Shown: positions 5,678 through 40,635, counted from the stretch's first letter. The stretch is 64,000 nucleotides of DNA from Malonomonas rubra DSM 5091 (GCF_900142125.1 NZ_FQZT01000004.1:186001-250000), one strand, 5' to 3'. Notes: generated from the letters alone by a model not told the origin. Numbers and translations: made by a program.

Positions 5678-5714
5678 CTATTAACTTTTGTTTGTTGTTC
5701 TTCAAGGGGGCATT

Positions 5715-11700: not shown

Positions 11701-14700
11701 CAGTCACCACCAAAGCAACTTCCAAGGCGGCCGAGGCGGCGGTTAGCGTTGCGGTGACTGGCGTCGCTGGCGCCATCGCCACCTCAACCGGGGAAGCTTC
11801 AGCAACGGCGATTGATGCCGGCGAGGAGGATGATGCCGACGACACGGTCATCAACAGTGGAGATTTGACTGCCGAAGCAGACGCGTTGGCGGCCACCGCC
11901 ACGGTTTCAGTAACGACCGCCGGAGTCGCGGTCGCCGGGGGTGCCGCCTGGTCCGGTGGTACCAAGGCAAATGCTCAGGCGAGGGGCATCGAAGCTGGTG
12001 AAGGCTCAGACTTTATCGACAATTCTGGAGCGATGACTGTCCGGTCGAACTCAGACGCAGCGGAAGCGGCAGTTGCTGTGGCAGTCTCCGGGGTCGCGGC
12101 GGGTGTGGCGACAGCGACCAGCAGTTCGGACGCCAGCGCGATTGATACCGGGGACGACACGTCAGCTGATTTGGTCAGTAACAGTGGCGCTCTTGATGTA
12201 ACGGCACATTCGTTAGCCGCAACGACTTCGGTCAGCGTAACTACGGCAGGAGTTGCCGTTGCTGCCGGGGATGTCTGGGATGGTGGAACGGAGGCTGAAT
12301 CCCGGGCGCGGGGGATTGAAGTTGGCGAGGGCGGTGACGAAATTGAAAATACCGGAGATATCATCAGCCGGGCAATCGCCGAATCGGCATCGGCGAATCT
12401 GAGTGTTGCAGTGAGTGGGGTTGCCGGGGCGATCGCGTCTTCATCGGTTGCCGCGGATGCGGCGGCGCTGGATGTCGGTACGGGCGATTTTAACGACTCT
12501 GTCGTAAACACTGCCGATATTGACGCTGTTTCTTCAGCGGTTACGGCTTCAGCAGCCGTATCCTTTACCGCTGCAGGGGTCGCTGTGGCTGGGGACTCTT
12601 CTTGGTCAGGAGGAACCAATTCAACTGCCAGTGCCCAGGGAATAATCCTGGGTGGCGGGGATGATGCGGTGACGAATACCGGTTCAATTAATGCAGATTC
12701 GACCTCAAGCGCCACCGGCAGCAGTGTCGCAATTGCTGTTGCCGGTGTCGCCGCTGCCATCGCGTCTGCAGATGCCAATGCTAAAGCCTTGGGGATCAAT
12801 GCCGGAACCGGAGATGACAGCATCAATAGCGCGGGCAGTATAACAGTGAAGTCCTTGGCCAACGGGAACACGCTGACCAACGCGGATTCAAAATTTGGTG
12901 TTTCTGCTGCCGGCAACAGCGTCTGGGATGGCGGCGCCAAAAGCACATCAGCGTCGTCAGGTATTTCCGGCGACAGCGGTCTTGACCAGATCATCAGCAG
13001 CAGCAATATCAACAGCGATGCGGTTGCCATATCCACCTCAACAGCCATCTCTTTTACTGTCGGCGGTGTCAGCGCTTCAGTCTCGACATCGACGGCCTCA
13101 GCCACCGCAGATGCAATTGATGGCGGAGACGAAAATGACCTGATCGACAACAGCGGCAATCTGGATGTTATGGCTAACGCCAACGCGATCAGCGCGAACC
13201 TGGCACTTGCTGGAATCGGGGTCGCAGCAGCCGGGGATTCGGTGTGGGATGGCGGGACCACTGCTACCGCGAATGCCAGCGGGATCAGCGGCGGTGAAGG
13301 TGAGGATATCATTCGCAGCGGACATTTTGATGAACAGGGCCTTCCGCTCGCGGCAGAAGTGAACCATGTTGATGCTGTAGCCGAAGCGCTGGTTTCGACC
13401 AACAGCCTTTCAGTCACCGCCGGAGGGGTCAGTGCCGCGGTCAGTACCGGTACCGCAAGTGCTGCCGGTCGGGGGATTGATGCTGGCAGTGGCGACGATA
13501 CTGTTATCAATGCCAGTGAGTTGTCCGGTCAGGCCAATGCCGAGGCCTATTCCGTGAGCGTTGCCTTGAGCGGTGTCGGAGGTGCCGGGGCCAGTGATGC
13601 TTTCTGGGATGGCGGGACCAAAGCAACAGCAGACGCTTATGGGATTGATGGTGGCAGTGGTAACGATCAACTCAGCAACCTGGTCGGGATATCTGCTGAC
13701 GCGGCATCCAACACTGTGTCAGCAGCTGTTGCGGTCAGTGGCTCCGGTGGGCTGGCGGGGGCCGTGGCGGCGTCAACTTCTACCGCAACCGCGACTGGAA
13801 TCAGCGGCGCAGACGGAGAGGATGAAATTTTGACCATGGGAACGGTCAACTCGAATGCGCTGGCCGAGGCCGAAGGGGTGAGTATCAGCTTCTCCGGATT
13901 CGGCGCGGCGGTTTCGGGTGCTCCCGGGATTAACACCACGGTCGCTGATGCGCGGGCGATTGGCCTGTCAGGTGGCAGCGGTGGCGATTTCCTTGGTAAT
14001 GAAACTGGCGGAGCGATGGTTGTCAATTCCACTTCGCGCGCCAGAGAGACGGCAGTGTCTATCGCTTACGGTGGCGGCATCGCCAGCGCCAACGCTAACA
14101 GCAGCAGCTCAGCGACCAGCATCGGCTTCGATGGCGGCAGCGAGAATGACCTGCTCCAAAACAACGGCTCCCTGGTGCAAACCAGTGATGCGCAGTCGAT
14201 CGCCCGCAGTATCCAGTTTGCCGGCCTTGGGGCCAGCATCGCCAATGCCAATGCGGGCAGTCAAGCGATAAGCCAGGCGTTCACCGCAGGAGACGGGGAT
14301 GATGATGTTTACAATCGTGGCTCGGTTGATCTGACATCAACGGCCTCAGCGATCGGGCAATCGGTCTCGGTGACTCTGGTCGGTGCCAGCATCGGCAAGG
14401 CAAGCGCCGAAGCGCAGGCCGATAGCCTCGGCCTGGGCGGAGACGGCGGGAATGACCGGCTGGACAACTCCGGGGAGGTGGCCATCAATACTTTTGCTAC
14501 GGCTCAGGCCGCTTCGATTTCAGCAGCTCAGCTCGGATATAACCTTGGGGAAGCGAACTCTGAAGCAGGATCCGTGGCAACCGGTATCAGCGGTGGAGAC
14601 GGTACAGATACATTGCTCAATTCCGGTAAGGTGACAATTGCTGCGGAGACCGATGCCGACGCGACCTCGATAGCCGTCTCTCAGCTTGGCTATAACGTCG

Positions 14701-17700
14701 GAAAAGCCAATACCACTGCAGATGTTTCGGTCAGCGGGATGGCCGGGGGGGATGGTGACGACACCATTATAAACCAGGAGGAGGGAGAGATTGAACTTTT
14801 GGCCAAAGGAGATGCTTCTTCTCTGAGCGTCTCGATTACGGTCGGTGGGGTCGCTGCCGCGGAAGCCGCCAGCCTGGTGCTCGCTGATGTGATCGGCATG
14901 CAGGGGGATGAGGGTGATGACATGATCCTGAACGCAGGTCTGCTCGGAGTGCGGACGCAAGCCCTGAGCACTTCGGACAGTGCGTCAGTCAGTTTTCTCG
15001 GCGCTACGACAGCGAAAGCGGGAACCGAGGTTGAGTCTACAGCGATTGGAATCGCTGGTGGCACCGGCAGCGATTATATTGAAAACAGTGGAAGTCTCTG
15101 GGTTGGACCGGAGGCCGATGCGATTGGCGATGAACGATATATGGCGGTCTTACGTGGTTCAGCTAAAAGCGGGGGATTGGGCGGAGCTTCAAGTGCCGAG
15201 GCGTCAGCTGCTGCCTCGGTAGAAGCAACCGGTATCGATGGCGGGGATGAGGCAGATACGATTAACAATCTAGGTGACATTACCGTCAACGCCAATTCAC
15301 TGTCGGTCACCAAATCGGGCTCCGTGCAAATATTCGGTTCGAGCAGTGCTGAGGGGATTGCAGGATCGACAACTTTCACGCGTGGCATTGATGGTGGCGC
15401 AGGAAATGATCTGATCAACAACTCTGCAGATTTGAAGTTGGAGGCAACCTCCGAGCTGAGAATGGAAGGTGGTTCTTACTCTTTCGCCGGCAGTTCGAGC
15501 TCAGGAGGAACTCTTGCCGCGATGACATCTTTAGAAGCGCTTCAAGGAGGCGATGGAGATGATTTTATTGCCAGCAATGGGGCCGTGGATGTAATCGCCT
15601 CATCCATTATGGAGTCATCAAACGGCTCTTCCGCCTCGTTCGGCGGCAGCGTTGCGAGTGTTACCTCTGGAGGAAGGACCTTTGCGACCGGCTTTTCCGG
15701 TGGTGCGGGAGATGATTACGTGGAAAACGGTGAAGATGGCAAGCTGACTGTTACAGCCGAAACGGACGTGGATGTCACAGCCTTGTCCTACTCGTTTGCC
15801 GGCGGTTCGGCAACCGATACGATGTTGTCCGGGAATGCTGTCGTCACGGGCCTCAAAGGCGAGTCGGGTGACGATCGATTGAGAAATGAAGGCACGATAT
15901 CTGTGCTTGCCGACTCGGTCCTGACCTCTACCGGCGGTGCCAAATCAACCATTACCGCTTCGGGTGGGGCGGATGCCACGGGCAGTTCGGTCGCTGGTTC
16001 GACGGCTGTCGGTTTGGACGGTGGCGAGGGCGATGATGTTCTGGAGAGCTATGGGTCACTTAGCGTGAATTCCAGAAGTACCGCCGAAGCCTTCAACCGC
16101 GGCAACAACAGCATTTCCTTTACGAGTGATACGGTTGCTGGCTCAATTACCAGTGCCGCGGCGCTCGCAGTCGGTATTGATGGCGGCAATGGTAGCAACT
16201 CAATGTTTGTCGATGGCCTTCTGGATGTTGATGCTACGAGTATTGGTTATGGTCTTTCCTCTTCAAGCGGCGCAGAATTCTCGTTTGATGGTGATGGCAA
16301 GGCCTGGGTCGAGGCGACATCAATTGCCGAAGCTGCTGGAATTACAGGTGGCGATGCAGGAGACCAGGTTGCCGTAAATGGCGATATCTTTGTTGATGCC
16401 TTTGCGACCACTGCCAAGACGATCAGTACCACGGTGACCGTTTACAGGGTCATCGGAACGACGGATGAAAACAGCGATGAGCCGATGGTCGAGACAATCT
16501 CCGAGGACGTGCTTCCGGAGGCCGGTTCCGAAGGTTACGAAGTTGACACTGTTGTTTTCTGGAACGGGACTGATGCCCCTGATGATCCGAATGAGGTTGG
16601 TACCGGTTCGTATATGATTGTCGTCAGTGAACTTGTAGATGACGACGATGATAGTGATACGGATCCCGTCCTCGTCTATTCATGGGAACCGACCGACCGC
16701 ATAGTGGAAGAAGAGGTTTTGATCGAGGAATCAGGCTTCCCGTCATATGCTTTTGCCAATGGCAATGGCTTCCCGGATGGCGACGGATATGCTGAGGCGG
16801 GGGCAACCGCCACGGCGACAAGTCATGGGGTGCAGTTGGGGGATGGTGATGATAGCATCAAAAATTACGGCAACATCAGCGTAAAGGCACAGGCAGATGC
16901 AGTTGTCAACGTGGGCGCTGACGGCGATTCCAGTGGTGATGCCCGGGGAATTGCGATTTCCCAGGCAACCGCAAGGGCGCTTGGTATGCAGGTTGGTGCT
17001 GGCAACAACAACATCTATAATTTCGGCACGCTTGATGTCCGCGCCATTCCGGTTGCTCAGGCGCGGACCGATGTTTCAGGTGGTGATTACTGCATCTGGT
17101 TCTTCGGTTGGCATTGCGGTGCTGGTGGAGACGGAATCGGCACCGCGGATGCTTATTTCACCGCAGAAGCCTCCGGGATACAGGCGGAAAACGGCAACAA
17201 CTTGATCGTCAACGATGGTGAAATCAATGTGAGTGCTCGGCCCGATCTTCGCTTTGATGATCGGCTGAACTTTGACTACGCGGCAATTGTACGAAAGGAA
17301 GATAAAGAGTATTTCTATGTCAATTCCAGCGCAGACGCTTACGGTATCCGTCTTGGTGATGCTGAAAGTGGCAACACCGTCGTCAATAACGGCATACTGA
17401 CCGTATCGGCCTACACCCTGAGTTCGGAGTGCGATACGGATACCTGTCGTAATTTACTGAACGCCAGCGATGACTCATCAACACCAGACTTTGAAGAGTC
17501 AATTTCGGCGATCGGTATTTTGACCGGATCCGGCAATGACACCGTCATCAACAGTGGCGCCATTATCGCCGATATCGTGCGAAGCACTGAGCGTTCGAAT
17601 GGCACCGCAATCAAGACCGGTGCCGGTAATGACACCGTCACCCTGTCTGATGCGGTGGATGTCGTACATCCAGAGACAGGCGAGTCACTGTTCATTTCTC

Positions 17701-19448
17701 TTAAGGGGGATGTTGATTTTGGCTCCGGTGACGATACCCTCCATCTGATCGGTACTCCCATTGTTGAGGGGGATATTTCCCTCGGGGAGGTTGATGACGG
17801 CGTAGATTCACTGATTTTCGAAGGTGATGGTTTTTTTGAGAGGCCATTGAATGGATTTGAAAACGCGAAGAAGCTGAGAGCTGGAACTTATCAGGTGCCG
17901 AGCCTGCCGACGATGCAACGGATTGAGATCGAAGCTGGCACTTTGCAGACCGACAGCAATTACCAATTTGCCGAAGCTGGCTTTCTGCAAACTCAGGTTA
18001 ACAGTGACGGTAGCCACGGTAAGCTGTATGTAAAAGGCACGACCACCCTCGCCGGTGACCTGTCTGTGCTGCGCGATTCGGCAGGACCATATATCGATGG
18101 AACGGAGTATGACATCATCGAAGGGACGGACGGCATCAATAGCTCCTTCAGTGAGGTCAACCTGCCGACCGCAACGCGACTTGTTAGCTTTAACCTGGAA
18201 CAACAACCGACATTGGTTGCAGTAGAAGCGCAGGTTGAAAGCTATACCAGTGTTGCCAGAAATCCGGTGGAGATAGCTCTGGGCCGGCAGATGGATACCT
18301 GGATGCTTAATGCAACCGGGGAGCTACAGCAGGCTTTAGGAGAATTCCAGACACTGAATTCGGACGAATTTGCAGAAGCTTTTCTCGGCTTCAGTCCTGG
18401 TCAGTACGACAGCTTGACGCAGGCGACTTCTGTGGCCAGCCAGCAGTACAGTCAGACCCTCCTGCAGCGGATCCACAGTGTCAGATTGCTGGGAGAAACG
18501 ACAACACAGGGTGCTCAAGGCTATTTCTCGTCCGGCGACAAGCCGATATTGCTTGCTTTCAACGGTCCGGTTGACAGCATTGCCCAACTTTTCCCAACTG
18601 AGAACAAGCCGACCGCGGAATATGGAATGTGGCTGGAGAGCTACGGGCAGTGGGGGGAGCAGGATGCGGAAAACGGTTTTGTCGGCTCAGAATTCAATCA
18701 TTACGGCGCCGCGATAGGCCTTGATTACCTTCTGAATAATCACTCTCTTCTTGGTTTCAGTCTCGGTTATTCGAGCACCAGGGTCGATATGGATCAGAAC
18801 CAGGGTGATGCTGATGTCGACAGCCTGAATCTTTCTATATACGGCAGCTTTTTCAACGAAAAAGGTTACCTGGATGGAGTTTTGGCTTACGGCCAGCAGG
18901 AATACGAGAGTACGCGGAATATCCGGATTGGGGCGATCAATGAGGTCGCTCGGGGCGAACATGATGGCTATTTTTACTCGGTATTCCTCGAAGGGGGCTA
19001 TAATTTCAACTTTAGCCCCTGGATCCTGCAACCCTTTGCCAACCTTGCCTATGCTGTTCTCAGTGAGGATGGTTTTACCGAGCAGGGGGCAGGAACATTG
19101 AGCCAGGTTTTGGCTGATCGAGAAACCAACTCGCTGGTTTCTCAGCTGGGGGTGCGCATCAGTCCAGTCATCCAGCTGCAACCTGGCAAGCTGATTCCAG
19201 AAGCCAGTCTTGCCCTGCAATACGATTTCGAGATTGATGACCGCAAAATTCAATCATCATTTGTGGATCAGCCAGGAACCTCATTTACTATCGAGGGGAG
19301 TGAAGTTGATAACTCCAGTGTTGTGGTCGGGGTCGGCGTAACTTATCTCGGGCATAACGGGTTTACCCCAGCCATACAGTATAGTGGTGAATTTCGTGAT
19401 GGGTTCTCCAGTCATAGTGTTGTGGGAGAGTTGCGATGGGAGTTTTAG
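5715..19448 (+). CDS. giant autotransporter adhesin, repeat beta-helix passenger (type Va)
   Basis: 4577 residues from ATG 5715, chosen because AAGGGGG lies just upstream and a signal peptide follows directly (SLFVLLLVSFWSLFPCLSA). The passenger is poor in Cys and aromatics and rich in Ala, Ser, Gly, Asp and Asn. Its units D-x-V/I-x-N-x-G are typical of right-handed beta-helix surface proteins. Three tiers of repeats are listed separately. An acidic non-repeat insertion lies at about 16400-16760. Near the end of the passenger are two Cys pairs (YCIW..WHC about 17090, CDTDTC about 17430). The last 280 residues are an autotransporter beta-barrel starting near EYGMWLESYGQW and ending in the outer-membrane signature ELRWEF. 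A helical linker precedes it. Probable role: surface adhesin for biofilm or mineral attachment, switched by the riboswitch upstream. No neighbouring secretion genes, as expected for a self-exporting protein. Confidence 0.93.
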   Translation: MSVFWNPSVERLTPLSLFVLLLVSFWSLFPCLSAADDQETVVTLTGTDGSDYISPTILDSLLFSAEIETEFSEKVEASATGIDSLAGDDRIEVGIPMISTVAATAMLLNTPEKATEANATSIGIVAGDGNDTVTTNTLIDILGASLSLYGDTLEFDQPPSENDSDGTTKKEVDASTSASTEVTAVKTGGGIDSITNSGLLALQSAATSGGTANQLTATIRESSSVKIESKSNASATGLQAGNGEDRIRNDGSFTTSATSTSGALAVGLVAPENSAAEDKKVNLSLLANSSATASVSGIQADADEDASSEENSSPFGLNGLGVTFLKSLTTVSGDDQITNNALLTGDAVAVSGAGAGAISNKVNGSVQTEAKSTAEASVVGVNAGGGNDLVINAGELLSTASATSGALAISVEVGASDEDTTTTPSKDRQNKSSTEASSSAKASAVGISGDGGSRTETLTGSLSLDDGILQLEIQKIIEQMAGDDSVTNHFAIQSFSLAKSLTDSIGVNISGGGSVDAKAKAAADAYSAAVSTGFGGDSITNLGALNSQATASATAVSVGLAIGQPVADTPEGEDPPAANDRKLASKTETDVNAKSRAFGIDSDGPGENSTFASSLQISDGGLFFSLLDKRQLAAGDDWVNNTLAISAGSQSTADSTSASIQIDAVGSLNSTSKAHAEAESQGVATGAGDDVVINSGLLLVDAVSVADSVSLGLSVTKPPEGETVSDDGITKQDKTNVKVDSSVTAQATTTGIDAEGKDHLRSTLNTLEITGSELTYQLSLEKESLAGVDSVSNTGAITSDSVASSGATSAGISINADGSVDAEANSKASAHAGGVLTGGGSDQIENQGVLSSAATATATALSASVSIAQPTDNTGQKPSAWEKIKEKFAGANSAANAEATAYSSGIDSEGDAGRQADQLSVNISSNGLLIDVERDFSSTAGDDQVVNSGILDASASAQTLAGAADVKVNTEGTASAESNATAKAGAKGIVTGGADDQISNSGVVSTLADAEAGSVSVSFTQPDGPAVKSKVDSKATAEANATGIGGDGGREAETLVSSLSIGPDGIAFLYSSEELAAEGADTITNTGSVSANALSVSGAGGGAVSLDGAAKAEVTAKSSSQAVAVDAGGGADLVSSAGQLNATADAVSGAIALGFGQKSEEKSKTKVELEAGATADSTAVGIRGDSGADQRLDIALSISGDGLVTSYQSEQIAARGDDEIQNFAAIDAAATSAAGGLGVSMAIDGVAKAEVTATAKSQATAIEAGGGNDQLLSAADIEASAASTAAALAVGVGKKTNDSSSAKTKVEAKTVAEAKATGINADGGLEDKLRTLAVTIDGDGLLVDYTDQSTAVSGDDELTNTGAVTSAATASSGALAVAVSIDGAARADINSTATANATALDAGSGSDTVHNSAELLSTADATSATLNVAVTSDGNAVTNAGLMDGGNKAQAAAIGISSSGGDYQKTTKVKGFIDFKNIGVTASYEGITDSLSGDGTDEIYNSGDIIANSSALAPEVTAGVSGEGLALSIGRTQAEASANAIESGNLDDVIDNHGNLTSEASATAVLANVAVVGKGLAVATNAVWDGGTKATATANGIAADSGSITTKQVDAEASADIAYVRYSDQFQAASGNDRVNNSGQIDASSFALAPSLNVAVNLGEENKTGLAAAVSTSSAEAQTTAIRGGDGDDELLNTGLLNATADANAVSANVAVVNKGVAAAADAVWDGGTKADASAVGIAGDGGDLTRMTYLSIGTDDMSFRKETVVAGGSDKIDNRGEINADANANAGSVGVAVAAKGVGVATSTATAEARAAAIDAGSDDSVDEVYNSGKLKAESSARAAAASVSVTNQGLALSADSVWDGGTSANSEARGIDVGVGGETLTNDGQIDALAHALAASASLAATMTGVAGASATATSKADAVAIDASEGEDDDTLNNNGALCAKSDATAAVASVSVVNEGLSIAAGAVWDGGTGAESVAKGIAAGAGQDTVKNTGAVTTKATSKAAEAAVSVAVTGVAGAIATSTGEASATAIDAGEEDDADDTVINSGDLTAEADALAATATVSVTTAGVAVAGGAAWSGGTKANAQARGIEAGEGSDFIDNSGAMTVRSNSDAAEAAVAVAVSGVAAGVATATSSSDASAIDTGDDTSADLVSNSGALDVTAHSLAATTSVSVTTAGVAVAAGDVWDGGTEAESRARGIEVGEGGDEIENTGDIISRAIAESASANLSVAVSGVAGAIASSSVAADAAALDVGTGDFNDSVVNTADIDAVSSAVTASAAVSFTAAGVAVAGDSSWSGGTNSTASAQGIILGGGDDAVTNTGSINADSTSSATGSSVAIAVAGVAAAIASADANAKALGINAGTGDDSINSAGSITVKSLANGNTLTNADSKFGVSAAGNSVWDGGAKSTSASSGISGDSGLDQIISSSNINSDAVAISTSTAISFTVGGVSASVSTSTASATADAIDGGDENDLIDNSGNLDVMANANAISANLALAGIGVAAAGDSVWDGGTTATANASGISGGEGEDIIRSGHFDEQGLPLAAEVNHVDAVAEALVSTNSLSVTAGGVSAAVSTGTASAAGRGIDAGSGDDTVINASELSGQANAEAYSVSVALSGVGGAGASDAFWDGGTKATADAYGIDGGSGNDQLSNLVGISADAASNTVSAAVAVSGSGGLAGAVAASTSTATATGISGADGEDEILTMGTVNSNALAEAEGVSISFSGFGAAVSGAPGINTTVADARAIGLSGGSGGDFLGNETGGAMVVNSTSRARETAVSIAYGGGIASANANSSSSATSIGFDGGSENDLLQNNGSLVQTSDAQSIARSIQFAGLGASIANANAGSQAISQAFTAGDGDDDVYNRGSVDLTSTASAIGQSVSVTLVGASIGKASAEAQADSLGLGGDGGNDRLDNSGEVAINTFATAQAASISAAQLGYNLGEANSEAGSVATGISGGDGTDTLLNSGKVTIAAETDADATSIAVSQLGYNVGKANTTADVSVSGMAGGDGDDTIINQEEGEIELLAKGDASSLSVSITVGGVAAAEAASLVLADVIGMQGDEGDDMILNAGLLGVRTQALSTSDSASVSFLGATTAKAGTEVESTAIGIAGGTGSDYIENSGSLWVGPEADAIGDERYMAVLRGSAKSGGLGGASSAEASAAASVEATGIDGGDEADTINNLGDITVNANSLSVTKSGSVQIFGSSSAEGIAGSTTFTRGIDGGAGNDLINNSADLKLEATSELRMEGGSYSFAGSSSSGGTLAAMTSLEALQGGDGDDFIASNGAVDVIASSIMESSNGSSASFGGSVASVTSGGRTFATGFSGGAGDDYVENGEDGKLTVTAETDVDVTALSYSFAGGSATDTMLSGNAVVTGLKGESGDDRLRNEGTISVLADSVLTSTGGAKSTITASGGADATGSSVAGSTAVGLDGGEGDDVLESYGSLSVNSRSTAEAFNRGNNSISFTSDTVAGSITSAAALAVGIDGGNGSNSMFVDGLLDVDATSIGYGLSSSSGAEFSFDGDGKAWVEATSIAEAAGITGGDAGDQVAVNGDIFVDAFATTAKTISTTVTVYRVIGTTDENSDEPMVETISEDVLPEAGSEGYEVDTVVFWNGTDAPDDPNEVGTGSYMIVVSELVDDDDDSDTDPVLVYSWEPTDRIVEEEVLIEESGFPSYAFANGNGFPDGDGYAEAGATATATSHGVQLGDGDDSIKNYGNISVKAQADAVVNVGADGDSSGDARGIAISQATARALGMQVGAGNNNIYNFGTLDVRAIPVAQARTDVSGGDYCIWFFGWHCGAGGDGIGTADAYFTAEASGIQAENGNNLIVNDGEINVSARPDLRFDDRLNFDYAAIVRKEDKEYFYVNSSADAYGIRLGDAESGNTVVNNGILTVSAYTLSSECDTDTCRNLLNASDDSSTPDFEESISAIGILTGSGNDTVINSGAIIADIVRSTERSNGTAIKTGAGNDTVTLSDAVDVVHPETGESLFISLKGDVDFGSGDDTLHLIGTPIVEGDISLGEVDDGVDSLIFEGDGFFERPLNGFENAKKLRAGTYQVPSLPTMQRIEIEAGTLQTDSNYQFAEAGFLQTQVNSDGSHGKLYVKGTTTLAGDLSVLRDSAGPYIDGTEYDIIEGTDGINSSFSEVNLPTATRLVSFNLEQQPTLVAVEAQVESYTSVARNPVEIALGRQMDTWMLNATGELQQALGEFQTLNSDEFAEAFLGFSPGQYDSLTQATSVASQQYSQTLLQRIHSVRLLGETTTQGAQGYFSSGDKPILLAFNGPVDSIAQLFPTENKPTAEYGMWLESYGQWGEQDAENGFVGSEFNHYGAAIGLDYLLNNHSLLGFSLGYSSTRVDMDQNQGDADVDSLNLSIYGSFFNEKGYLDGVLAYGQQEYESTRNIRIGAINEVARGEHDGYFYSVFLEGGYNFNFSPWILQPFANLAYAVLSEDGFTEQGAGTLSQVLADRETNSLVSQLGVRISPVIQLQPGKLIPEASLALQYDFEIDDRKIQSSFVDQPGTSFTIEGSEVDNSSVVVGVGVTYLGHNGFTPAIQYSGEFRDGFSSHSVVGELRWEF
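6690..11150 (+). repeat. autotransporter tier 1 repeats, about 137-155 residues
   Basis: Copies beginning with a G-D-D-x-V/I-x-N signature recur near 6710, 7155, 7620, 8070, 8535, 8950, 9360, 9770, 10190, 10610 and 11015. The spacing is about 460 bp early and 410-420 bp later. Each unit has two clear D-x-I-x-N-x-G blocks and a third degenerate block (L-x-I-x-x-x-G-L). Confidence 0.75.
10461..13900 (+). repeat. autotransporter tier 2 repeats with WDGGT motif, about 109 residues
   Basis: Ten copies of V/A/S-W-D/S-G-G-T/A occur near 10461, 10882, 11289, 11616, 11944, 12271, 12602, 12920, 13241 and 13604. A Trp-less copy (MDGGN) lies near 10042. From 11289 to 13241 the spacing is a regular 318-331 bp. 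Each unit holds two D-x-I/V-x-N-x-G blocks. The first copies overlap tier 1, so the two repeat types grade into each other. Confidence 0.8.
13900..16400 (+). repeat. autotransporter tier 3 repeats, about 52 residues, GGxGxD-like
   Basis: Short units with G-G-x-G-x-D-x-I-x-N-x-G recur near 14291, 14445, 14600, 14748, 14905, 15060, 15240, 15395, 15550, 15700, 15860 and 16022, about 155 bp apart. The motif resembles RTX calcium-binding turns. Calcium binding is only a possibility. Confidence 0.75.
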
Positions 19449-25137: not shown

Positions 25138-25167
25138 TTGATTTTGTGACTGGCCGATGTATATACA
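25138..25167 (+). promoter_or_regulatory. candidate sigma70 promoter for the Lys/Ala peptide
   Basis: TTGATT (25138-25143) and TATACA (25162-25167) are 18 bp apart, about 60 bp before the small gene. The -10 lies in a dyad-like TGTATATACA stretch. Confidence 0.4.
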
Positions 25168-25229
25168 ATGTATATCAAGCCACGCACTTCTGTGTGGTTC
25201 GCAGTCACCCCGTAAAAGGAGGAAAAACG

Positions 25230-25343
25230 ATGGCCAAGGCAAAAGCAAAAGCACTGAAAAAAGAAATCAAAGCTAGAAAAGCCAAAATCGCCAAGCAGGA
25301 AGGCAAACTGAAGAAGCTTAAGAAAGCTCTGAAAAAAGCCTGA
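25230..25343 (+). CDS. 37-residue Lys/Ala-rich helical peptide
   Basis: The ATG at 25230 follows a near-perfect AAAAGGAGG ribosome-binding site, which is the reason to accept so short a gene. Sixteen of 37 residues are Lys and one is Arg. Ala and Leu fill the remaining positions (EGKLKKLKKALKKA at the end), so a single amphipathic or coiled-coil helix is expected. It has no signal peptide. A hairpin terminator follows at 25382. The composition resembles histone H1-like tails and suggests binding to DNA, RNA or polyphosphate. It lies just before the CHAD-ParA operon, which may be meaningful. No family recognised. Confidence 0.7.
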   Translation: MAKAKAKALKKEIKARKAKIAKQEGKLKKLKKALKKA

Positions 25344-25381
25344 TTCCAGTTCAGGGGAGGTCGCAATTTTGTAGCCTCATC

Positions 25382-25424
25382 AATAAGGGCATTACGTATA
25401 GCGCGTAGTGCCTTTATTGTATTT
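25382..25424 (+). terminator. hairpin terminator after the Lys/Ala peptide
   Basis: Arms 25382-25396 and 25404-25418 pair at 13 of 15 positions (AATAAGGGCATTACG type), with ATTTT just after. It separates the peptide gene from the CHAD operon. Confidence 0.6.
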
Positions 25425-25493: not shown

Positions 25494-27014
25494 ATGACTT
25501 CAGCGACTTATTGGAAATTCACAACAGCTGTGACCCCTGCCGAAATAGAGCAGGCTTTGCCGAAAAAACTGCGTTGCCGTGTTCTCGAGAAGAGCAGTCG
25601 GGGACTGATTGTGCTGGACGATTTTCACTGGCATATCTGGCAATCAGGTGGTTTGCTGACTGCCGATCCGCAGCAGGGACTGCTGAATTTGTCGATCGCA
25701 AAAGAAATCCCTACAGTTCCTTATTCGCCTGAAAACCGTTTCTGGTGGCAACTTCCTTCCGGTGCTCTGAGTGACCACCTCCGTGAACTTCTCGATCTGC
25801 ATGCTTTTGTCCCGAAAGCGGAATGTCGCCTGATCAGTGAGCCCCTTGCCATCATCAACTCCGACGAAAAAATCGTCACCCGGGTCAAGCTTCTGACCCT
25901 CAATGGAGAGAATTTGCCGAGCAGCACTTTTGCCGAGATCTCTCCATTGCGCGGTTATGGAGACGATTACACCGTCACCCTCCAAGCGCTGTCTCTGCTA
26001 TCGTCGGTCGAGGTTGAGTCGTTTGATCTCAGGACCCTGCTGCTTGCCGGCGGATTGCATATTGATCCCCCTGATGAAAAAGACAGCTTTCTTCTCAACC
26101 CTGCAGAGCCGGCGGAAGCGGCGATCTGCAAAATGGCAAAGCGGATGCTGGTGACGGCGCGGCAGTACGAGCAGGGGATTGTTGAAGATATCGACACCGA
26201 GTTCGTGCACCAGTACCGGGTTAATATCCGCAAAAGCCGGTCGTTGATCAGCTTGTTCAAAAAGACATTGTCGAGCGAGCGGTTACAGGCTCTCAAAACC
26301 GAACTTAAGGTCCTTGGAAGCCGCACTAACGACCTGCGTGACCTTGATGTTTTCCTGCTCGATGAAGATTATTACCGTGAGATGCTGCCAGCTGAACTGC
26401 AAACTGGCATGACGCAGGTTTTCACCCGGATCAAACGACGGCGGACGATGGCGTTGAAGAAGGTTGTTGCCTCGCTGCAGGACGATGCCTATCAAGCCGA
26501 AGTCGATCACCTGTTTGAATTGTTCGATACCGAGCCGGATTGGCTCAGCAAGCAGTCTCAGATGCCAATCCAGCAGTTGGTCGCTAAAAAAGTACTGGCC
26601 CAGTACCAGCGGATCTGCGCCAATGGCGATATCATTGATGAGCAGACGCCGGACGAAGCGGTGCATGACTTGCGCATCGAATGCAAAAAGCTGCGCTATC
26701 TGCTGGAGCTTTTCAGCGAGCTGTTCGGCAAGAAAAAGGTCAAACAGCTGATTCGTCACCTTAAAGGCCTGCAGGACAACCTCGGCCGTTTCAACGATTT
26801 TTCCGTTCAGCGCGAGTTTTTGAGCGGACTTGGAATCGGCAAAACCATTTCTGCAGAGCAGCTGGCCAGCATCAATGGCCTGACAGCGGTGCTGTTCAAT
26901 AAGCAGCTGCATGAACGCAGTCTGGTTGTAGCCAATATCGACAAGTTTACCGCGCCCGGGGTCAGAGACGAATTCCAACAAATTTTTGCCCTGAGTGACG
27001 AGGAGTCATCCTGA
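25494..27014 (+). CDS. CHAD domain protein with degenerate CYTH-like N-terminus
   Basis: 506 residues from ATG 25494 (CAGAGG upstream). A longer TTG reading from 25449 adds only a poor leader. Residues about 1-190 look like a divergent CYTH barrel (GLIVLDDFHWHIWQSGG, ECRLISEPLAI). The rest is a CHAD helical bundle with paired basic motifs: HQYRVNIRKSRSLISLF near 245, RTNDLRDLDVFL near 285 and HDLRIECKKLRYLLELF near 390. CHAD domains bind polyphosphate and locate to polyphosphate granules in several bacteria. The stop overlaps the ATG of the parA-like gene (TGATG), so the two are translationally coupled. No catalytic CYTH ExExK motif was seen. Confidence 0.88.
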   Translation: MTSATYWKFTTAVTPAEIEQALPKKLRCRVLEKSSRGLIVLDDFHWHIWQSGGLLTADPQQGLLNLSIAKEIPTVPYSPENRFWWQLPSGALSDHLRELLDLHAFVPKAECRLISEPLAIINSDEKIVTRVKLLTLNGENLPSSTFAEISPLRGYGDDYTVTLQALSLLSSVEVESFDLRTLLLAGGLHIDPPDEKDSFLLNPAEPAEAAICKMAKRMLVTARQYEQGIVEDIDTEFVHQYRVNIRKSRSLISLFKKTLSSERLQALKTELKVLGSRTNDLRDLDVFLLDEDYYREMLPAELQTGMTQVFTRIKRRRTMALKKVVASLQDDAYQAEVDHLFELFDTEPDWLSKQSQMPIQQLVAKKVLAQYQRICANGDIIDEQTPDEAVHDLRIECKKLRYLLELFSELFGKKKVKQLIRHLKGLQDNLGRFNDFSVQREFLSGLGIGKTISAEQLASINGLTAVLFNKQLHERSLVVANIDKFTAPGVRDEFQQIFALSDEESS

Positions 27015-27763
27015 TGAAAGTTCTTGCCTGTTACAGTATCAAAGGGGGCGTCGGCAAGACCGCCTCGGCAGTCAACCTGGCCTACTGGGCGGCCAAATCC
27101 GGTTATCGTACGTTGCTGCTCGACCTCGACTCGCAGGGGGCGTCATCCTTCTATTTTCGTGTTAAATCACCGGTCAAAAAGAACTGGGGCAAGCGCCTGC
27201 TGAAAGCTTACGGGGAAGTTCTCAAGCAGGTGAAAGAGAGCGATTACAAGAACCTCGATGTGGTCCCGGCGCACCTGTCGTTCCGTAATTTCGATATCCT
27301 CCTTGATGAAATCGGCAAGCGCAAGAATCGACTCAGCCAGGCTCTCAAAGGACTGAAAAAAGAGTACGACTTGATTATTCTCGATTGTCCCCCAACCATC
27401 AGTCGTCTGGCGGAGAATATCTTCAACGCGTCCGATATCGTGCTGGTTCCGGTGATTCCGACCACACTTTCCGAGCGCACCTTCGAGCAGTTGCTCAAAT
27501 TTTTCAAGCAGCAGGATTACAGCCGCAAAAAGCTGTTGCCGTTTTTCACCATGGCGGATGGGCGCAAACAACTACACCGGGAAACTGCCACAGCTATGCG
27601 CAAGCGCTATAAGTATTTCCTCAAGCACGCCATCCCTTATTCGACTGATGTCGAAAAGATGGGGAAATACCGCGCGCCGATTGATATTTTTGCTCGCGGG
27701 CGACTGGCGAATAAATCCTATTTCGCTTTGTGGAAAGAAATCGAAAGCAAGCTGGAGGGATGA
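27014..27763 (+). CDS. ParA/MinD-family ATPase coupled to CHAD
   Basis: 249 residues. The deviant Walker A KGGVGKTASAVNLAYW (residues 8-23) carries the signature lysine of ParA-type dimerising ATPases. LLLDLDSQG is the A' motif and LIILDCPPT the Walker B. Basic C-terminal residues (MRKRYKYFLKHA) could give non-specific DNA binding. ParA proteins position plasmids, chromosomes or protein bodies (carboxysomes, chemotaxis arrays) over the nucleoid. There is no ParB and no origin nearby. The partners are the CHAD gene before it and a small ribbon-helix-helix gene after it, both overlapping by one base. A cargo-positioning role is therefore more likely than chromosome partition. That is inference. 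Confidence 0.9.
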   Translation: MKVLACYSIKGGVGKTASAVNLAYWAAKSGYRTLLLDLDSQGASSFYFRVKSPVKKNWGKRLLKAYGEVLKQVKESDYKNLDVVPAHLSFRNFDILLDEIGKRKNRLSQALKGLKKEYDLIILDCPPTISRLAENIFNASDIVLVPVIPTTLSERTFEQLLKFFKQQDYSRKKLLPFFTMADGRKQLHRETATAMRKRYKYFLKHAIPYSTDVEKMGKYRAPIDIFARGRLANKSYFALWKEIESKLEG

Positions 27764-27933
27764 TGGAAGAAAAAAAAAGCAAGAAAACTAAAAAAGACAG
27801 TCAGCTGGTGATCCGCATTAACGGTGAGCAGCGTGACCAGTTCGTTGACCTCTGCGAAGAATTGGATACCAGTGCTGCGCGGGAGATCCGCCGCTTTATC
27901 AAGCAGTTTTTACAAACTAACGGGAACGCATAG
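27763..27933 (+). CDS. small ribbon-helix-helix protein, ParA partner
   Basis: 56 residues. The ATG at 27763 overlaps the parA-like stop as TGATG, with GGAGGG upstream. A basic leader (EEKKSKKTKK) precedes one beta strand (QLVIRIN) and two helices (EQRDQFVDLCEELDTSAARE, then IRRFIKQFL), the plan of Arc/CopG RHH dimers. Small RHH proteins often serve as the centromere-binding or regulatory partner of ParA ATPases. Here it could link the ATPase to DNA or repress the operon. Confidence 0.75.
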   Translation: MEEKKSKKTKKDSQLVIRINGEQRDQFVDLCEELDTSAAREIRRFIKQFLQTNGNA

Positions 27934-27956
27934 ATATTCACGACAGGAGGACACTC

Positions 27957-28436
27957 ATGGCGACACCAATTACAGAGGTTAGCGGCATCGGCCCCGCAAC
28001 CGCAACTATTCTGGCCGAAAATGGGATCACTACTGCTGAAGAGCTGGCGACACAGACTTTGCGCCAGGTTGCCTCGATCAAGACTTTCAGCGAAATCAGG
28101 GCTGCCCGGGTGATTGATGCTGCCAAGTCTCTGCTGTCTGCGGAAGCGGCGCCGGTTACAGAAGCGGCGAAAACGGTGGAGAAGGCTGCAACGAAGGAAA
28201 AAGCCGAAACGAAACCGGCGAAAAAAGCCGATAAAAAGAAATCGAAAGAAAAGATAAAGGAAAAGAAAAAAGACAAGCCGAAAGAAAAGAAGGCGAAGAA
28301 GGAAGAAAAGCCAGTTAAAAAGAAAAAAACAGATAAACCGGCGAAAAAGAAAAAAGATGACAAGCCGGATAAAAAAGTCAAAAAATCCGTTAAGGATAAA
28401 AAGGATAAAAAGTCTGATAAGAAGAAGAAAAAGTAA
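27957..28436 (+). CDS. helix-hairpin-helix protein with a long lysine tail
   Basis: 159 residues with AGGAGG before the ATG. Residues 5-60 form a helix-hairpin-helix domain (VSGIGPATATILAENGI, then a second helical repeat). From about residue 75 to the end the chain is nearly half lysine, in blocks such as PAKKADKKKSKEKIKEKKK and ending KSDKKKKK. The plan (small folded domain plus lysine tail) is like bacterial histone H1-like proteins and Pseudomonas AlgP, which bind nucleic acid and polyphosphate. It lies 23 bp after the RHH gene and before a strong terminator, so it is probably the last gene of the CHAD-ParA operon. Poly-A runs make the tail prone to slippage and length variation. Confidence 0.8.
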   Translation: MATPITEVSGIGPATATILAENGITTAEELATQTLRQVASIKTFSEIRAARVIDAAKSLLSAEAAPVTEAAKTVEKAATKEKAETKPAKKADKKKSKEKIKEKKKDKPKEKKAKKEEKPVKKKKTDKPAKKKKDDKPDKKVKKSVKDKKDKKSDKKKKK

Positions 28437-28438
28437 TA

Positions 28439-28468
28439 AAACGGCCCCTGATTTCAGGGGCCGTTTTT
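28439..28468 (+). terminator. strong intrinsic terminator of the CHAD-ParA operon
   Basis: ACGGCCCCTGA / TCAGGGGCCGT stem with a tight loop, then TTTTT. It ends 23 bp before the convergent ABC operon and may serve both strands. Confidence 0.85.
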
Positions 28469-35954: not shown

Positions 35955-36449
35955 TCAAAATGGTTTTTTGGGGTAGTCGTATCGAACCAACTGGGCACAG
36001 CCTTCCGTGGTCACAGCCCAGAGGTCGCAGGCGAGTTCCAACTCCAATATTCCACAGGTAGGCAGCCATTCCGGGGCATCGTCGGTGAACCACTCTCCCA
36101 GCTCGGAAAAGCCGGGATTGTGGCCGATCAGGATAATGTCGTCGTACCTGTCATCAAGTTGCTGGATCAGTTCGAGCAGGGTTGCCAGTTCGGCATCGTA
36201 AATCTGCTCGCGGAAAACGATATCGCCTGCAGCGTAGCCGATCTGTTTGGCGATCCGCTTGGCCGTCTGCCGGGCGCGTCTGGCCGGGCTGCTGATGATC
36301 AGTTCGGGGGCGCAGCCACGTTCAGCCAGCCGTTTGCCCATCAGTGACGCAGCTTTTTTGCCCCGTTCGTTGAGCGGCCGATCGAAATCGGTGTTTGCAC
36401 TGGAATGCCAGTCCGACTTGGCGTGCCGGATCAAGGTCAGTTTTTTCAT
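35955..36449 (-). CDS. sixA: SixA-type phosphohistidine phosphatase
   Basis: 164 residues, the size of SixA. The RHG motif LIRHAKSDW at the N-terminus carries the catalytic His. ISSPARRARQTAKRI and ILIGHNPGFSELGEW supply the other histidine-phosphatase-fold residues. The family removes phosphate from His on relay proteins such as ArcB or the PTS protein NPr. It overlaps the end of the ppx gene as ATGA, so it is cotranscribed and probably coupled. In Desulfuromonadales and other bacteria SixA is often beside Ppx and CHAD genes. Confidence 0.9.
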   Translation of the reverse strand: MKKLTLIRHAKSDWHSSANTDFDRPLNERGKKAASLMGKRLAERGCAPELIISSPARRARQTAKRIAKQIGYAAGDIVFREQIYDAELATLLELIQQLDDRYDDIILIGHNPGFSELGEWFTDDAPEWLPTCGILELELACDLWAVTTEGCAQLVRYDYPKKPF

Positions 36450-38020
36450 TGCACGGTCACCGTTTTCACCTTTATCCGGTAACCGAAAACATCGCTGAAT
36501 AGATCTCCTTTGGTTTCAGCGCCATAAGCCTCAACTGAAAGATCGCTGTTGCCGCTTAATGTGAGGGATAGGCTGGTCTTGTCGAGTTGGCAGTCAAGGT
36601 CAGAAATTTGTCGGTTGCGGCGCCGGTCAAGGCCGTCGGCCAGTCGCAGGACAGCCCCGAGCTGTCGCACCAACAGCCGATCCTCTTCGGACAGAACGCA
36701 GAAATTGCTATGGCTTTTTTTCGGTTTTGCTTTGCGGTGATAGCGGGCCAGGTTGGCGATGATCTCACGCTCGCGCGGAGTGAAGCCGAACAGGTTGGCG
36801 TGGCGAATCAGGTGGTAGCTGTGTTTGTGGTGTTGGTGGTAGCTGATGAAATAGCCGATGTCGTGCAGCAGGGCAGCGGCTTCAAGCAGCTCGCGCTCTC
36901 TTTTGCCCAGACCGGACAGCGGGGCGATGGTGTCGAAGATCTGGCATGCGAGTCGACAGACCTGCTCTGAATGCTGCTCATCGAAGCGGCAGGAACGGGC
37001 GAAGTCAATCACGGATTTGCGCCAGTCGCGTGGCTGTCTGGTGACCGGCAGCAGCCCCCGTTTTTGCAGGCTCTGCAGAATCAAACCCTCTCGGATGCCT
37101 TTGGCGTTGATCCGCAGCAGGTTGGTTTTGCTCCGTCGCATCAGTTCATCGGTCAGGACCATGCCGGCGATGATGATATCGGCCCGTTCGGGGCTGAGGC
37201 CGGTAATGCTCTGCCGCTCCTTCTGGTTTTTTCGCGTCAGCATCGCCAGCAGGTGGACGACCTCGGAGTGCAGCACTTCGTAACGATGCACCGATTCGTA
37301 ATCTTCGCCACGCATCGCCATGACCATCGAACCGATGTTGGTCATGGTGCCGCCGGAGCCCACCAGACAGCTGACCGGCAGGCCGTCACCGATGCCAGCC
37401 TGTTTCAGCGATTTGCGGATATATTTGCGTAACTGTTTAAGCTCCTCTTCACTCGGCGGGTTGCTGTGGATGAATTTTTCCGTCAGAAAAACAGCACCCA
37501 GCTCCAAGGATGTAACAGTTTCAGTGTGGCGCCCCGAGGCGATGACGATCTCGACGCTGCCGCCGCCGATGTCGGCCACGGCAAAGCGCTGCTTTTCCAT
37601 GGCGAAGTTGTGGTGCACGCTCAGGGTCGCCAGATCCGCTTCGACATCACCGTCGATCACTTTGATTTCGAGCCCGGTTGCATCTTTTACTGCACGGATA
37701 AACTGGTCGCGGTTGTTCGCTTTGCGCACTGCGCTGGTAGCGACAACCTCGACCATCTGTGCGCCCAGGCCCGAGATGATTTTGCACATCCGCTGCAGGG
37801 CCTCGATCGCCCTCTGCTGTGCTTCTGGTGAAATAATTCCGCTATTATTCAGACCTTCGCCGAGGCGCACCTGCGCTTTTTCGTCATCCAGAATGCGAAA
37901 ACCTTCCTGTGGGTCGACTTCTACAACGATGCAGCGGAAGGAGTTTGTACCGATGTCGATCGCCGCAAGTCGCGGCGGAGCGGCGATGGTCAATGGAATT
38001 CTGCTGACTGATTCTTTCAT
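36446..38020 (-). CDS. ppx: exopolyphosphatase / pppGpp phosphohydrolase, Ppx/GppA family
   Basis: 524 residues, long-form Ppx. ASKHA phosphatase motifs: AAIDIGTNSFRC near residue 18, VEVVATSAVRKANN near 92, VADIGGGSVEIV near 148 and GSGGTMTNIGSM near 220. A C-terminal HD-type domain follows, with LLHDIGYFISYHQHH near 390. It removes terminal phosphates from polyphosphate, or hydrolyses pppGpp; sequence alone does not decide. Cotranscribed with sixA and divergent from the small Cys/Lys gene and ppk1, so synthesis and breakdown of polyphosphate face each other here. Confidence 0.9.
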   Translation of the reverse strand: MKESVSRIPLTIAAPPRLAAIDIGTNSFRCIVVEVDPQEGFRILDDEKAQVRLGEGLNNSGIISPEAQQRAIEALQRMCKIISGLGAQMVEVVATSAVRKANNRDQFIRAVKDATGLEIKVIDGDVEADLATLSVHHNFAMEKQRFAVADIGGGSVEIVIASGRHTETVTSLELGAVFLTEKFIHSNPPSEEELKQLRKYIRKSLKQAGIGDGLPVSCLVGSGGTMTNIGSMVMAMRGEDYESVHRYEVLHSEVVHLLAMLTRKNQKERQSITGLSPERADIIIAGMVLTDELMRRSKTNLLRINAKGIREGLILQSLQKRGLLPVTRQPRDWRKSVIDFARSCRFDEQHSEQVCRLACQIFDTIAPLSGLGKRERELLEAAALLHDIGYFISYHQHHKHSYHLIRHANLFGFTPREREIIANLARYHRKAKPKKSHSNFCVLSEEDRLLVRQLGAVLRLADGLDRRRNRQISDLDCQLDKTSLSLTLSGNSDLSVEAYGAETKGDLFSDVFGYRIKVKTVTVQ

Positions 38021-38304: not shown

Positions 38305-38421
38305 TTATTTTTTTGTGAGCTAATCTTGACTGCACGAGTTGGATAACGCTCATCCTTTGCTCATATTTGTCAATTAATATTCCTCAGTTATGCTTTAGTT
38401 CTGACGTTGAGGAGTAGGCGA

Positions 38422-40635
38422 ATGATTGATTTTATCGATTCTGAGCAGGATGGGGAAATGCATATGACAGCAGCCGGAATTGCGTCGGCAGGAACTGGTG
38501 AGGAGACGGTGCCGAAAATCGATTTGAACGACCCTAGCCTCTACTTTAATCGGGAGCTGTCCTGGCTCAAATTCAACGACCGGGTTCTGTTCCAAGCCTC
38601 GGACAAGCGTAAGCCGCTATTGGAGCGCCTCAAGTTTCTGGCGATTGCCGGCTCTAACCTGGACGAGTTTTTCATGAAGCGGATCGGTGGCTTCAAGCAA
38701 CTAGTTGCCGCCAATGTGCAGGAAACAACGGTCGATGGACGTACTCCGCAGCAGCAGGTTGATGAATGTTGTGAGGCCGTACAGAATTATTTTCGTCGCA
38801 AAGAGAAGGTCTTCGATGATCTTCTGGCCGATTTGGTGAAAGAGGGGATCGAGCTGCTGCACTATGTTGAGTTAAGCGACGAAGAGCAGTCGGTTTTGCG
38901 TGACGATTTTTATGACAACATTTTTCCGCTGGTGACACCACAATCGGTTGATCCGGCGCACCCTTTCCCTTTTATTTCAAATCTTTCGCTGAACCTGTTG
39001 GTGTCATTACGTTACCCGGGAGAAAAGGAAGAGGCTCTGGCTCGGGTGAAGGTGCCGGTTGGGGCTGGAGCCAACCGCTTTCAGCAGATCGGTGACAGTC
39101 ACCGATTCGTCCTGCTGGAAGAGGTGATGGAGCACAACCTCGACTTGCTCTTTCCCGGTATGGAAATTCTCTCCTGCGAGTTGTTCCGCGTGACGCGGAA
39201 TGCCAACACGAGTAAAGAGGAAGAGCACGCTGACGATCTGATGGAGATGATCGAGACGGCGCTGCATCACCGCAAATTTGCGCCGATTGTGCGGATTCAG
39301 ATTGAGCCTGATATGGGGCCGCAGCACCGCGGGCGTCTGGCCTCAGAACTGGGACTGGATGAAGAGCGGGATGTTTTTGTTTCTCACTGCATGCTCGGCT
39401 TGCGTGACCTCTGGGAACTGTACCGGCTTGAGCTGCCAGAGCTGAAAGAAGTACCGCACCATCCGATTGATCATCCACAGTTGAGCAAAGATCGCAACAT
39501 CTTCCATGTCATCCGTGATCAGAAAGCGATCCTGCTGCAGCACCCGTATGAGTCGTTCTCGTCGTCCGTCGAACGTTTTCTTTACGAAGCGGCCACCGAT
39601 CCGAAGGTGCGCGGCATCAAGATGACCCTCTATCGAACCGACCCCGACAGCCGGATTATCGATTACCTGATCCGCGCGGCACAGAATGGCAAACAGGTGG
39701 CGGCTGTTGTCGAGTTGAAGGCGAGCTTTGATGAGCAGGCCAATATCAAGCTGGCCAGCCGGATGGAAGAGGCGGGCGTCCATGTCACCTACGGCGTGGT
39801 CGGCCTGAAAACTCACGCCAAGGTGATCCTGGTCATACGCCAGGATTATAAAGGTTTGCGCCGCTATGTGCACGTCGGTACCGGTAACTATCACCCGGGA
39901 ACCGCGCGACTCTACTCCGATCTGGGGATGTTCCTGTACGACAAAGCCGTAGGGCGCGATGCGACCGAGCTGTTTAATTACCTGACGACCGGTTTTACCC
40001 CCAAGCGCAGCTACTCTCAGATGCTGCCGGCGCCGAAGATTCTGAAGCGGGCTCTGCTCGACAAGGTGGAAAGGGAAATAACTGTCCATCAGGGCGGCCA
40101 GCCCGGCCTGATCCGCATGAAGATGAACGCACTTGAGGATATCGATATCGCGCGTGCCATTTATCAGGCATCGCAGGCGGGAGTGAAGGTCGAGCTGCTG
40201 GTCCGCGACAGCTGCCGGGTGCGGCCCGGACTGCCCGGTTTGTCGGAGAATGTCCGCGTGCTTTCCATCGTCGGTCAGTTCCTTGAGCACGCACGTGTCT
40301 TCTATTTCCGCAATGGCGGCGAAGAAGAGTTTCTGATCGGTTCTGCTGACGCCATGAAGCGCAACCTCGAACACCGGGTTGAAACCCTGGTGCCGGTGCC
40401 GGAAGGGCCGCTGCGCGAACAGGTCCGGGAGTTTCTCGACCTGCAATTTGACGATCGGGTCACTGCCTGGGAGTTGCATGCGGACGGCGAGTACAAATTG
40501 GTCAACCCGAGCGCGCGCAAAGGGCAGGATGGCTGCCAGGAAAAACTGATCAAGCTGGCGGATAAACGGCAGCATGAAGTTCAGCGGTTGCGCAAGCGTA
40601 AGTCGCGTCAGGCGGGTGAGCGGAACCTGAAATAA
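38422..40635 (+). CDS. ppk1: polyphosphate kinase 1
   Basis: 737 residues from ATG 38422 (GAGGAG about 10 bases upstream), normal PPK1 size. It makes polyphosphate from ATP. Order: N-domain with FNRELSWLKFNDRVL, head domain, then two catalytic domains of the phospholipase D fold. MTLYRTDPDSRI, VGLKTHAKVILVIRQ and HVGTGNYHPGTARLYSDLG contain the autophosphorylated His and its partner. The C-terminus ends basic (RLRKRKSRQAGER). A terminator follows at 40678. Its upstream partners are the small Cys/Lys gene and divergent ppx. Confidence 0.96.
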   Translation: MIDFIDSEQDGEMHMTAAGIASAGTGEETVPKIDLNDPSLYFNRELSWLKFNDRVLFQASDKRKPLLERLKFLAIAGSNLDEFFMKRIGGFKQLVAANVQETTVDGRTPQQQVDECCEAVQNYFRRKEKVFDDLLADLVKEGIELLHYVELSDEEQSVLRDDFYDNIFPLVTPQSVDPAHPFPFISNLSLNLLVSLRYPGEKEEALARVKVPVGAGANRFQQIGDSHRFVLLEEVMEHNLDLLFPGMEILSCELFRVTRNANTSKEEEHADDLMEMIETALHHRKFAPIVRIQIEPDMGPQHRGRLASELGLDEERDVFVSHCMLGLRDLWELYRLELPELKEVPHHPIDHPQLSKDRNIFHVIRDQKAILLQHPYESFSSSVERFLYEAATDPKVRGIKMTLYRTDPDSRIIDYLIRAAQNGKQVAAVVELKASFDEQANIKLASRMEEAGVHVTYGVVGLKTHAKVILVIRQDYKGLRRYVHVGTGNYHPGTARLYSDLGMFLYDKAVGRDATELFNYLTTGFTPKRSYSQMLPAPKILKRALLDKVEREITVHQGGQPGLIRMKMNALEDIDIARAIYQASQAGVKVELLVRDSCRVRPGLPGLSENVRVLSIVGQFLEHARVFYFRNGGEEEFLIGSADAMKRNLEHRVETLVPVPEGPLREQVREFLDLQFDDRVTAWELHADGEYKLVNPSARKGQDGCQEKLIKLADKRQHEVQRLRKRKSRQAGERNLK

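Follow-up and report, generated by a model that had tools for sequence, protein, structure and literature searches.

Positioning by ATPases of the ParA/MinD kind is known for carboxysomes (PMC6328274). For polyphosphate (polyP) granules, AlgP of Pseudomonas aeruginosa, a histone-H1-like, lysine-rich protein, associates with the granules and spaces them (PMC9239181); a 2025 review (PMC13052382) has AlgP as its sole polyP entry, gives the ATP dependence as unknown, and lists the polyP granule-positioning proteins of Caulobacter as not identified. Here we describe an operon of Malonomonas rubra DSM 5091 that encodes a CHAD protein, a ParA-family ATPase, a small ribbon-helix-helix (RHH) protein and a helix-hairpin-helix (HhH) protein with a lysine-rich tail. 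It lies in a window of 64,000 nt (NZ_FQZT01000004.1:186001-250000; positions are counted from the window start). The operon is probably a positioning and inheritance system of the ParA/MinD kind with the polyP granule as its cargo.

The locus resembles McdA-McdB (PMC6328274) in that a ParA-type ATPase is encoded with a cargo-associated protein, the cargo would be a protein or polymer body, and there is no parS. It differs in that the cargo protein is CHAD, a predicted polyP binder, and in the added RHH and HhH/lysine-tail proteins. No McdB homologue was noticed among the neighbour genes, for which no McdB model was run. AlgP shares a long lysine-rich tail with the HhH protein of the window, but has no known ATPase, whereas here an ATPase is added and a tail of mixed K, D and E is joined to an HhH domain. 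PhaF, PhaM and PhaH (PMC13052382) are likewise small DNA-binding proteins that fasten a storage granule to the nucleoid, but their cargo is polyhydroxybutyrate and no ParA takes part. The linkage of CHAD to ParA is itself seen in Acidithiobacillus, where a folD-ppk-parA-(CYTH-)CHAD locus also places ParA beside CHAD and PPK1 (PMC6416229, PMC10892726). In those reports parA is labelled only as a chromosome/plasmid partition protein and is not tied to granules, and there is no positioning role, RHH or HhH part, or phylum-wide survey.

Conservation of the CHAD-ParA pair

Searches with the ParA protein alone found close relatives in the host genome and in 8 of 40 related genomes (1e-68, versus 1e-25 for the remaining ParAs), and in 22 of 395 genomes when the same search was run over the phylum. 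A scan of GTDB genomes gave at least 521 related stretches, from which the best 80 were fetched. The survey comprises 106 distinct loci, which are the closest ones and were picked by similarity of ParA, not by the presence of CHAD. A CHAD gene lay on the same strand directly upstream of ParA in 89 of these 106 loci, and because the pair recurs so often among loci selected by ParA, the pairing is beyond chance. Of the 89 linked pairs, 55 had a stop-to-start distance of -4 nt and 7 had one of -1 nt. The loci came from Pseudomonadota, Thermodesulfobacteriota, Myxococcota, Kiritimatiellota, Verrucomicrobiota, Planctomycetota and Chloroflexota, so the order CHAD-ParA is conserved across phyla and is not unique to this genome.

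A preliminary description of this DNA had named a CHAD-ParA-RHH-lysine-tail operon. In the survey the core is CHAD-ParA, often with CYTH; the RHH and HhH/lysine-tail proteins recur but are optional. Among the unlinked loci, one (L035) is unlinked merely through a contig end, and the genome of another, a Methylobacter (L104), has a long CHAD gene on a different contig. At L058 (G030:C88), CHAD is intact and ParA is broken by an in-frame TGA, as in a decaying copy of the pair.

CHAD protein and polyphosphate gene neighbourhood

An AlphaFold2 model of the CHAD protein, built from 54 aligned sequences, had a pLDDT of 95.4. Its top Foldseek match was the Chlorobium CHAD-polyP complex (6qva, CtCHAD; TM 0.93 of target). 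Thiamine triphosphatases and YgiF matched more weakly, which suggests a triphosphate tunnel fold for the N-terminal part. Eight basic residues of the CHAD domain, of the kind that a polyP-binding CHAD should have, were invariant in the 54 homologues (R242, R246, R249, R282, H391, R394, K398 and R401). Polyphosphate binding has been demonstrated for other CHAD proteins (PMC6537752), which, according to literature cited there, coat polyP granules. Together with the fold and the conserved basic residues, this leads us to infer that the window CHAD protein binds polyP.

The ExExK motif was found in the N-terminal part of only 2 of the 89 CHAD proteins and is absent from the window protein. The N-terminal half, which on the model resembles the CYTH fold of triphosphate tunnel metalloenzymes (TTM), thus counts as a pseudo-CYTH domain: it has lost the catalytic ExExK motif, whereas the stand-alone CYTH proteins retain ExE[RK][KR] (37/37). 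YgiF-type CYTH-CHAD proteins (5a60) have the same succession of a TTM fold and CHAD; here, however, ExExK is gone from the TTM-like domain, and the active CYTH either has a gene of its own or is located elsewhere. The pseudo-CYTH domain is perhaps the docking site of ParA.

The surroundings of the pair were rich in polyP enzymes. Among the 89 linked loci, the flanks that were retrieved held CYTH in 36, a SixA-like phosphatase in 23, NUDIX in 20, PPK1 in 13, Ppx in 9 and PPK2 in 8, where the chance expectation near a linked ParA was ~0.27 each for PPK1 and Ppx. These counts come from HMMs built on clusters of this analysis. For CYTH, SixA-like, Ppx and PPK2 a representative each was checked with Pfam; the NUDIX representative had no Pfam match and was assigned from its sequence and from how its homologues on Paracoccus plasmids are annotated. 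The relatives L050 and L051 carry PPK1, Ppx and the SixA-like gene within ~5 kb upstream of CHAD. The order in Colwellia (L071) is RHH-CHAD-ParA-CYTH-NUDIX-HhH/lysine followed by Ppx and PPK1, and on a plasmid of Paracoccus marcusii pstB-phoU-phoB precede RHH-CHAD-ParA-CYTH-NUDIX-CYTH. The earlier proposal of polyP as the likely cargo through CHAD is much better supported now than from a single genome, because several phyla keep the CHAD-ParA order and polyP enzymes are enriched around the pair.

The same gene set could be read differently, with ParA as an ATP-driven switch on a CHAD/CYTH complex that governs the assembly or activity of polyP metabolism and does not move granules. CHAD-ParA-CYTH with SixA-like and NUDIX enzymes does resemble a metabolic gene set, and a CHAD protein with a pseudo-TTM half beside a separate CYTH with ExExK-like residues recalls a regulated enzyme complex. 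However, the characterised ParA/MinD ATPases of this type do positioning, and the recurring DNA-binding RHH and HhH/lysine-tail proteins better suit a process based on the nucleoid. We consider the switch unlikely.

In Geobacter-type loci the CYTH protein (285-322 aa) is apparently fused to a NUDIX-like domain (L113:7714-8601, and in L100, L108, L114 and L125).

ParA family and its partners

The residues K10-T16 (the deviant Walker A motif KGGVGKT), D37/D39/Q41, D124 and P126-P127 were invariant in 24 aligned rows and at least 93% conserved in 89. A tree with a Soj-type outgroup separated this ParA family with a support of 100, and the locus further differs from ParABS systems of the Soj-Spo0J type in having no adjacent ParB_N gene. 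The preliminary description had reported no ParB, and this holds: no partner was found at the locus, and none of the host's three ParB_N genes lies on this contig; two of the three neighbour other ParAs.

On the ParA tree, the label "CHAD-linked" required 7 changes versus 36 in shuffles, and 69 of the 72 members of the core clade were linked. The strict form of the claim, that CHAD-linked ParAs make up one clade, was rejected on account of those 7 changes. This strong clustering bears on the possibility that CHAD and ParA merely have a common phosphate-responsive promoter, with a ParA cargo unrelated to CHAD. Co-regulation would accord with the many ParAs of the broader family that have no CHAD nearby, some of them in genomes without any CHAD. 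The clustering stands against it, as does the start/stop overlap coupling, which is kept over several phyla to an extent far beyond what co-regulation would give. Co-regulation alone is therefore quite improbable. Across a sample of 150 Pseudomonadota genomes, this ParA family and CHAD tended to co-occur (37/45 versus 43/105, p = 2e-6), a test uncorrected for kinship and not relied on here.

Twenty of the ParA places that do not adjoin CHAD in those 150 genomes were inspected; their surroundings varied, and many fell in separate clades. Three Methylobacter loci (L104, L122 and L123) have a family ParA without CHAD directly upstream of a glycogen-phosphorylase-like gene, possibly another storage-granule cargo. 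A Bacteroidota clade without CHAD (L128, L129, L135, L137 and L138) has a conserved esterase-like protein of ~243 aa encoded after ParA. A more distant unlinked ParA (L169) lies near a PiT-like phosphate transporter and a DUF47/PhoU-like gene.

RHH protein and its candidate operator

An RHH gene was adjacent in 30 of the 89 CHAD-linked loci and in 0 of the 17 unlinked loci. Type A, that of the window, occurred by CHAD-ParA in 8 loci. In 23 loci an RHH gene of type B immediately precedes CHAD, mostly with an overlap; L098 carries both types. The Pfam match of the window RHH protein was weak (RHH_9, 0.0025, below the cut-off), and its assignment is backed by a family of homologues with invariant core residues.

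The palindrome ATATACAATGTATAT was found with up to 2 mismatches in 8/8 type-A loci and in no other of the 106 loci, and is exact in the window, where 0.03 sites with up to 2 mismatches would be expected by chance. It occurs exactly once in the 3.96 Mb host genome, at the operon, with one 1-mismatch site on another contig. Similarly, reading of the sequences placed TGACGTCA no more than 110 nt upstream of RHH in 19 of the 20 type-B loci that do not belong to the Geobacter group. Such a pattern is a signature of autoregulation. The RHH protein most likely represses its own operon from ATATACAATGTATAT, which comparative sequence analysis marks as its operator. It might in addition activate ParA, as ParG does, an activity faintly suggested by its basic N-terminal tail.

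Type Ib partition cassettes (ParF-ParG, delta-omega) likewise pair a ParA-type ATPase with a neighbouring small RHH protein that has a basic N-terminal tail, and have an operator upstream. If the operon were such a cassette, ParA and RHH would segregate a chromosomal or formerly plasmid-borne locus with CHAD as a passenger, and the module is indeed found on some Paracoccus megaplasmids. This is very improbable, since CHAD is the constant partner and RHH is missing near 59 of the 89 pairs, the exact palindrome is present once in the genome, and both megaplasmid copies examined sit among phosphate or metabolic genes, away from replication genes. The window locus also has no iteron array and no plasmid. 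The ParG model did not match the window RHH protein at E<=1 and matched 1 of 19 type-B proteins (E 0.027).

Three related identifications were tried. Profile searches of PDB and Pfam found no clear match of the RHH protein to ParG or omega, and ATATACAATGTATAT as a distributed centromere was rejected on its single exact genomic site. A plasmid origin or plasmid par system was set aside with best plasmid matches below 60% identity and the two Paracoccus megaplasmid copies situated as above.

Upstream of CHAD-ParA in L113 (4730-5284), L114 (4521-5093) and L125 (1081-1458), the RHH protein has a long N-terminal region rich in K, A and P, like AlgP and H1, with KAPKA-type repeats in the Geobacter-type loci L113 and L114. 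The DNA upstream of these three RHH genes has TATTATA-type repeats in place of TGACGTCA. In Nitrosomonas europaea (L091), the type-B gene just upstream of CHAD looks degraded or shortened, and its TGACGTCA site is kept.

Layout of the operon and the window

The coordinates bear out the one-base stop/start overlaps reported earlier for CHAD, ParA and RHH: the ATG of ParA uses the last base of the CHAD stop TGA (27012-27014), and the ParA stop and the RHH ATG have one base in common. An in-frame ATG at 27760 is an alternative RHH start, with which the overlap would become 4 nt. The HhH gene was also correctly placed in the same operon; it follows RHH after 23 nt, with an AGGAGG of its own in front and a terminator hairpin behind. 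Pfam matches were CHAD PF05235 (4e-54, residues 217-443 only), AAA_31 in ParA (1e-37) and HHH_5 (9e-12). Features added here to the preliminary description are the 37-aa lysine-rich gene, the palindrome, and the PPK2, SixA-like, Ppx and PPK1 genes.

Table 1. Features of the operon and polyP-related genes in the 64,000-nt window.
Feature	Position	Strand	Evidence
PPK2 polyphosphate kinase	4268-5128	-	PF03976 2.5e-109
Palindrome ATATACAATGTATAT, candidate operator of RHH protein	25161-25175	.	Comparative sequence
Lysine-rich protein, 37 aa, basic helix, optional part	25230-25343	+	Homologues in L052, L098
Hairpin with T-run, terminator or attenuator-like, separating lysine-rich gene from CHAD	25381-25419	+	
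CHAD protein, 506 aa; N-terminal pseudo-CYTH (TTM-like), C-terminal predicted polyP-binding CHAD domain (217-443)	25494-27014	+	
ParA-family ATPase, 249 aa; canonical deviant Walker A, Walker A', Walker B	27014-27763	+	
Small RHH protein (type A), 56 aa, lysine-rich N-terminal tail	27763-27933	+	
HhH protein with ~100-residue lysine-rich tail, putative nucleoid and/or polyP binder	27957-28436	+	
Strong terminator hairpin with T-run closing the operon	28438-28467	.	
SixA-like histidine phosphatase, operon-mate of Ppx	35955-36449	-	PF00300
Ppx/GppA exopolyphosphatase	36446-38020	-	PF02541 7e-64
PPK1 polyphosphate kinase, coordinates of the longest ORF, with the actual start probably further downstream	38407-40635	+	PF02503 at window 38881-39420 (G000:C24:224881-225420)

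The HhH/lysine-tail gene was found in 8 distinct loci, every one beside CHAD-ParA, and has one copy in the host genome. Its tail mixes K with D, E, S and P and is free of the KPAA-type repeats of AlgP/H1-like spacers; the NCBIfam model PhaH weakly matched its HhH domain (E 0.0075). Homologues of the 37-aa lysine-rich gene were found only in L052, near PPK2, and in L098 (Falsochrobactrum), where the gene adjoins RHH-A and RHH-CHAD-ParA-CYTH. Elsewhere in the window, a single 4586-aa ORF (5688-19448) probably encodes a very large protein of the surface or repeat kind.

Discussion

In the positioning system that we think fairly probable, CHAD would coat the polyP granule and present it to ParA. 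Nucleoid-bound ParA-ATP would come off wherever hydrolysis is stimulated by the granule complex; granules would thereby ratchet along the nucleoid, be spaced, and reach both daughters. Where present, the HhH/lysine-tail protein may tie the granule to DNA in the manner of AlgP, PhaF and PhaH, and the associated CYTH, NUDIX and SixA-like enzymes may trim polyP or related phosphates.

Several observations weigh against this account. RHH is missing near about two thirds of the CHAD-ParA pairs. CHAD shows no obvious ParA-activating peptide, its AlphaFold2 model being ordered throughout except for the last residues, and binding of this ParA to the nucleoid is assumed from its family. Most of the more distant ParAs in the family have no linked CHAD: in 150 random Pseudomonadota genomes, only 4 of 46 ParA places at E<=1e-40 adjoin CHAD; Bacteroidota members of the family have no CHAD linkage, and one Bacteroidota genome (L128) has no CHAD at all.

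An extension of the positioning account is more speculative and unlikely. The lysine-tailed RHH protein might be both repressor and granule component of a multi-phylum, ATP-driven polyP-granule machine, with polyP or the granule complex titrating it off the operator and so coupling the abundance of the machine to the granule load.

A survey of ParA/MinD cargos (PMC10241942) does not mention CHAD or polyphosphate, and no proposal of ParA-driven polyP positioning was found in the literature searched, subscription papers and preprints being outside the search. No energy-driven machine is known for the spacing or inheritance of polyP granules, and a ParA locked genetically to a polyP-binding protein across phyla would be the first such candidate. 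The question can be tested in culturable hosts such as Nitrosomonas europaea, Ruegeria, Methylotuvimicrobium buryatense and Oceanospirillum. If the positioning account is true, polyP granules would be a new cargo for the ParA/MinD family, and many ParA genes that are now "orphans" with a chromosome-partition annotation would gain a function.

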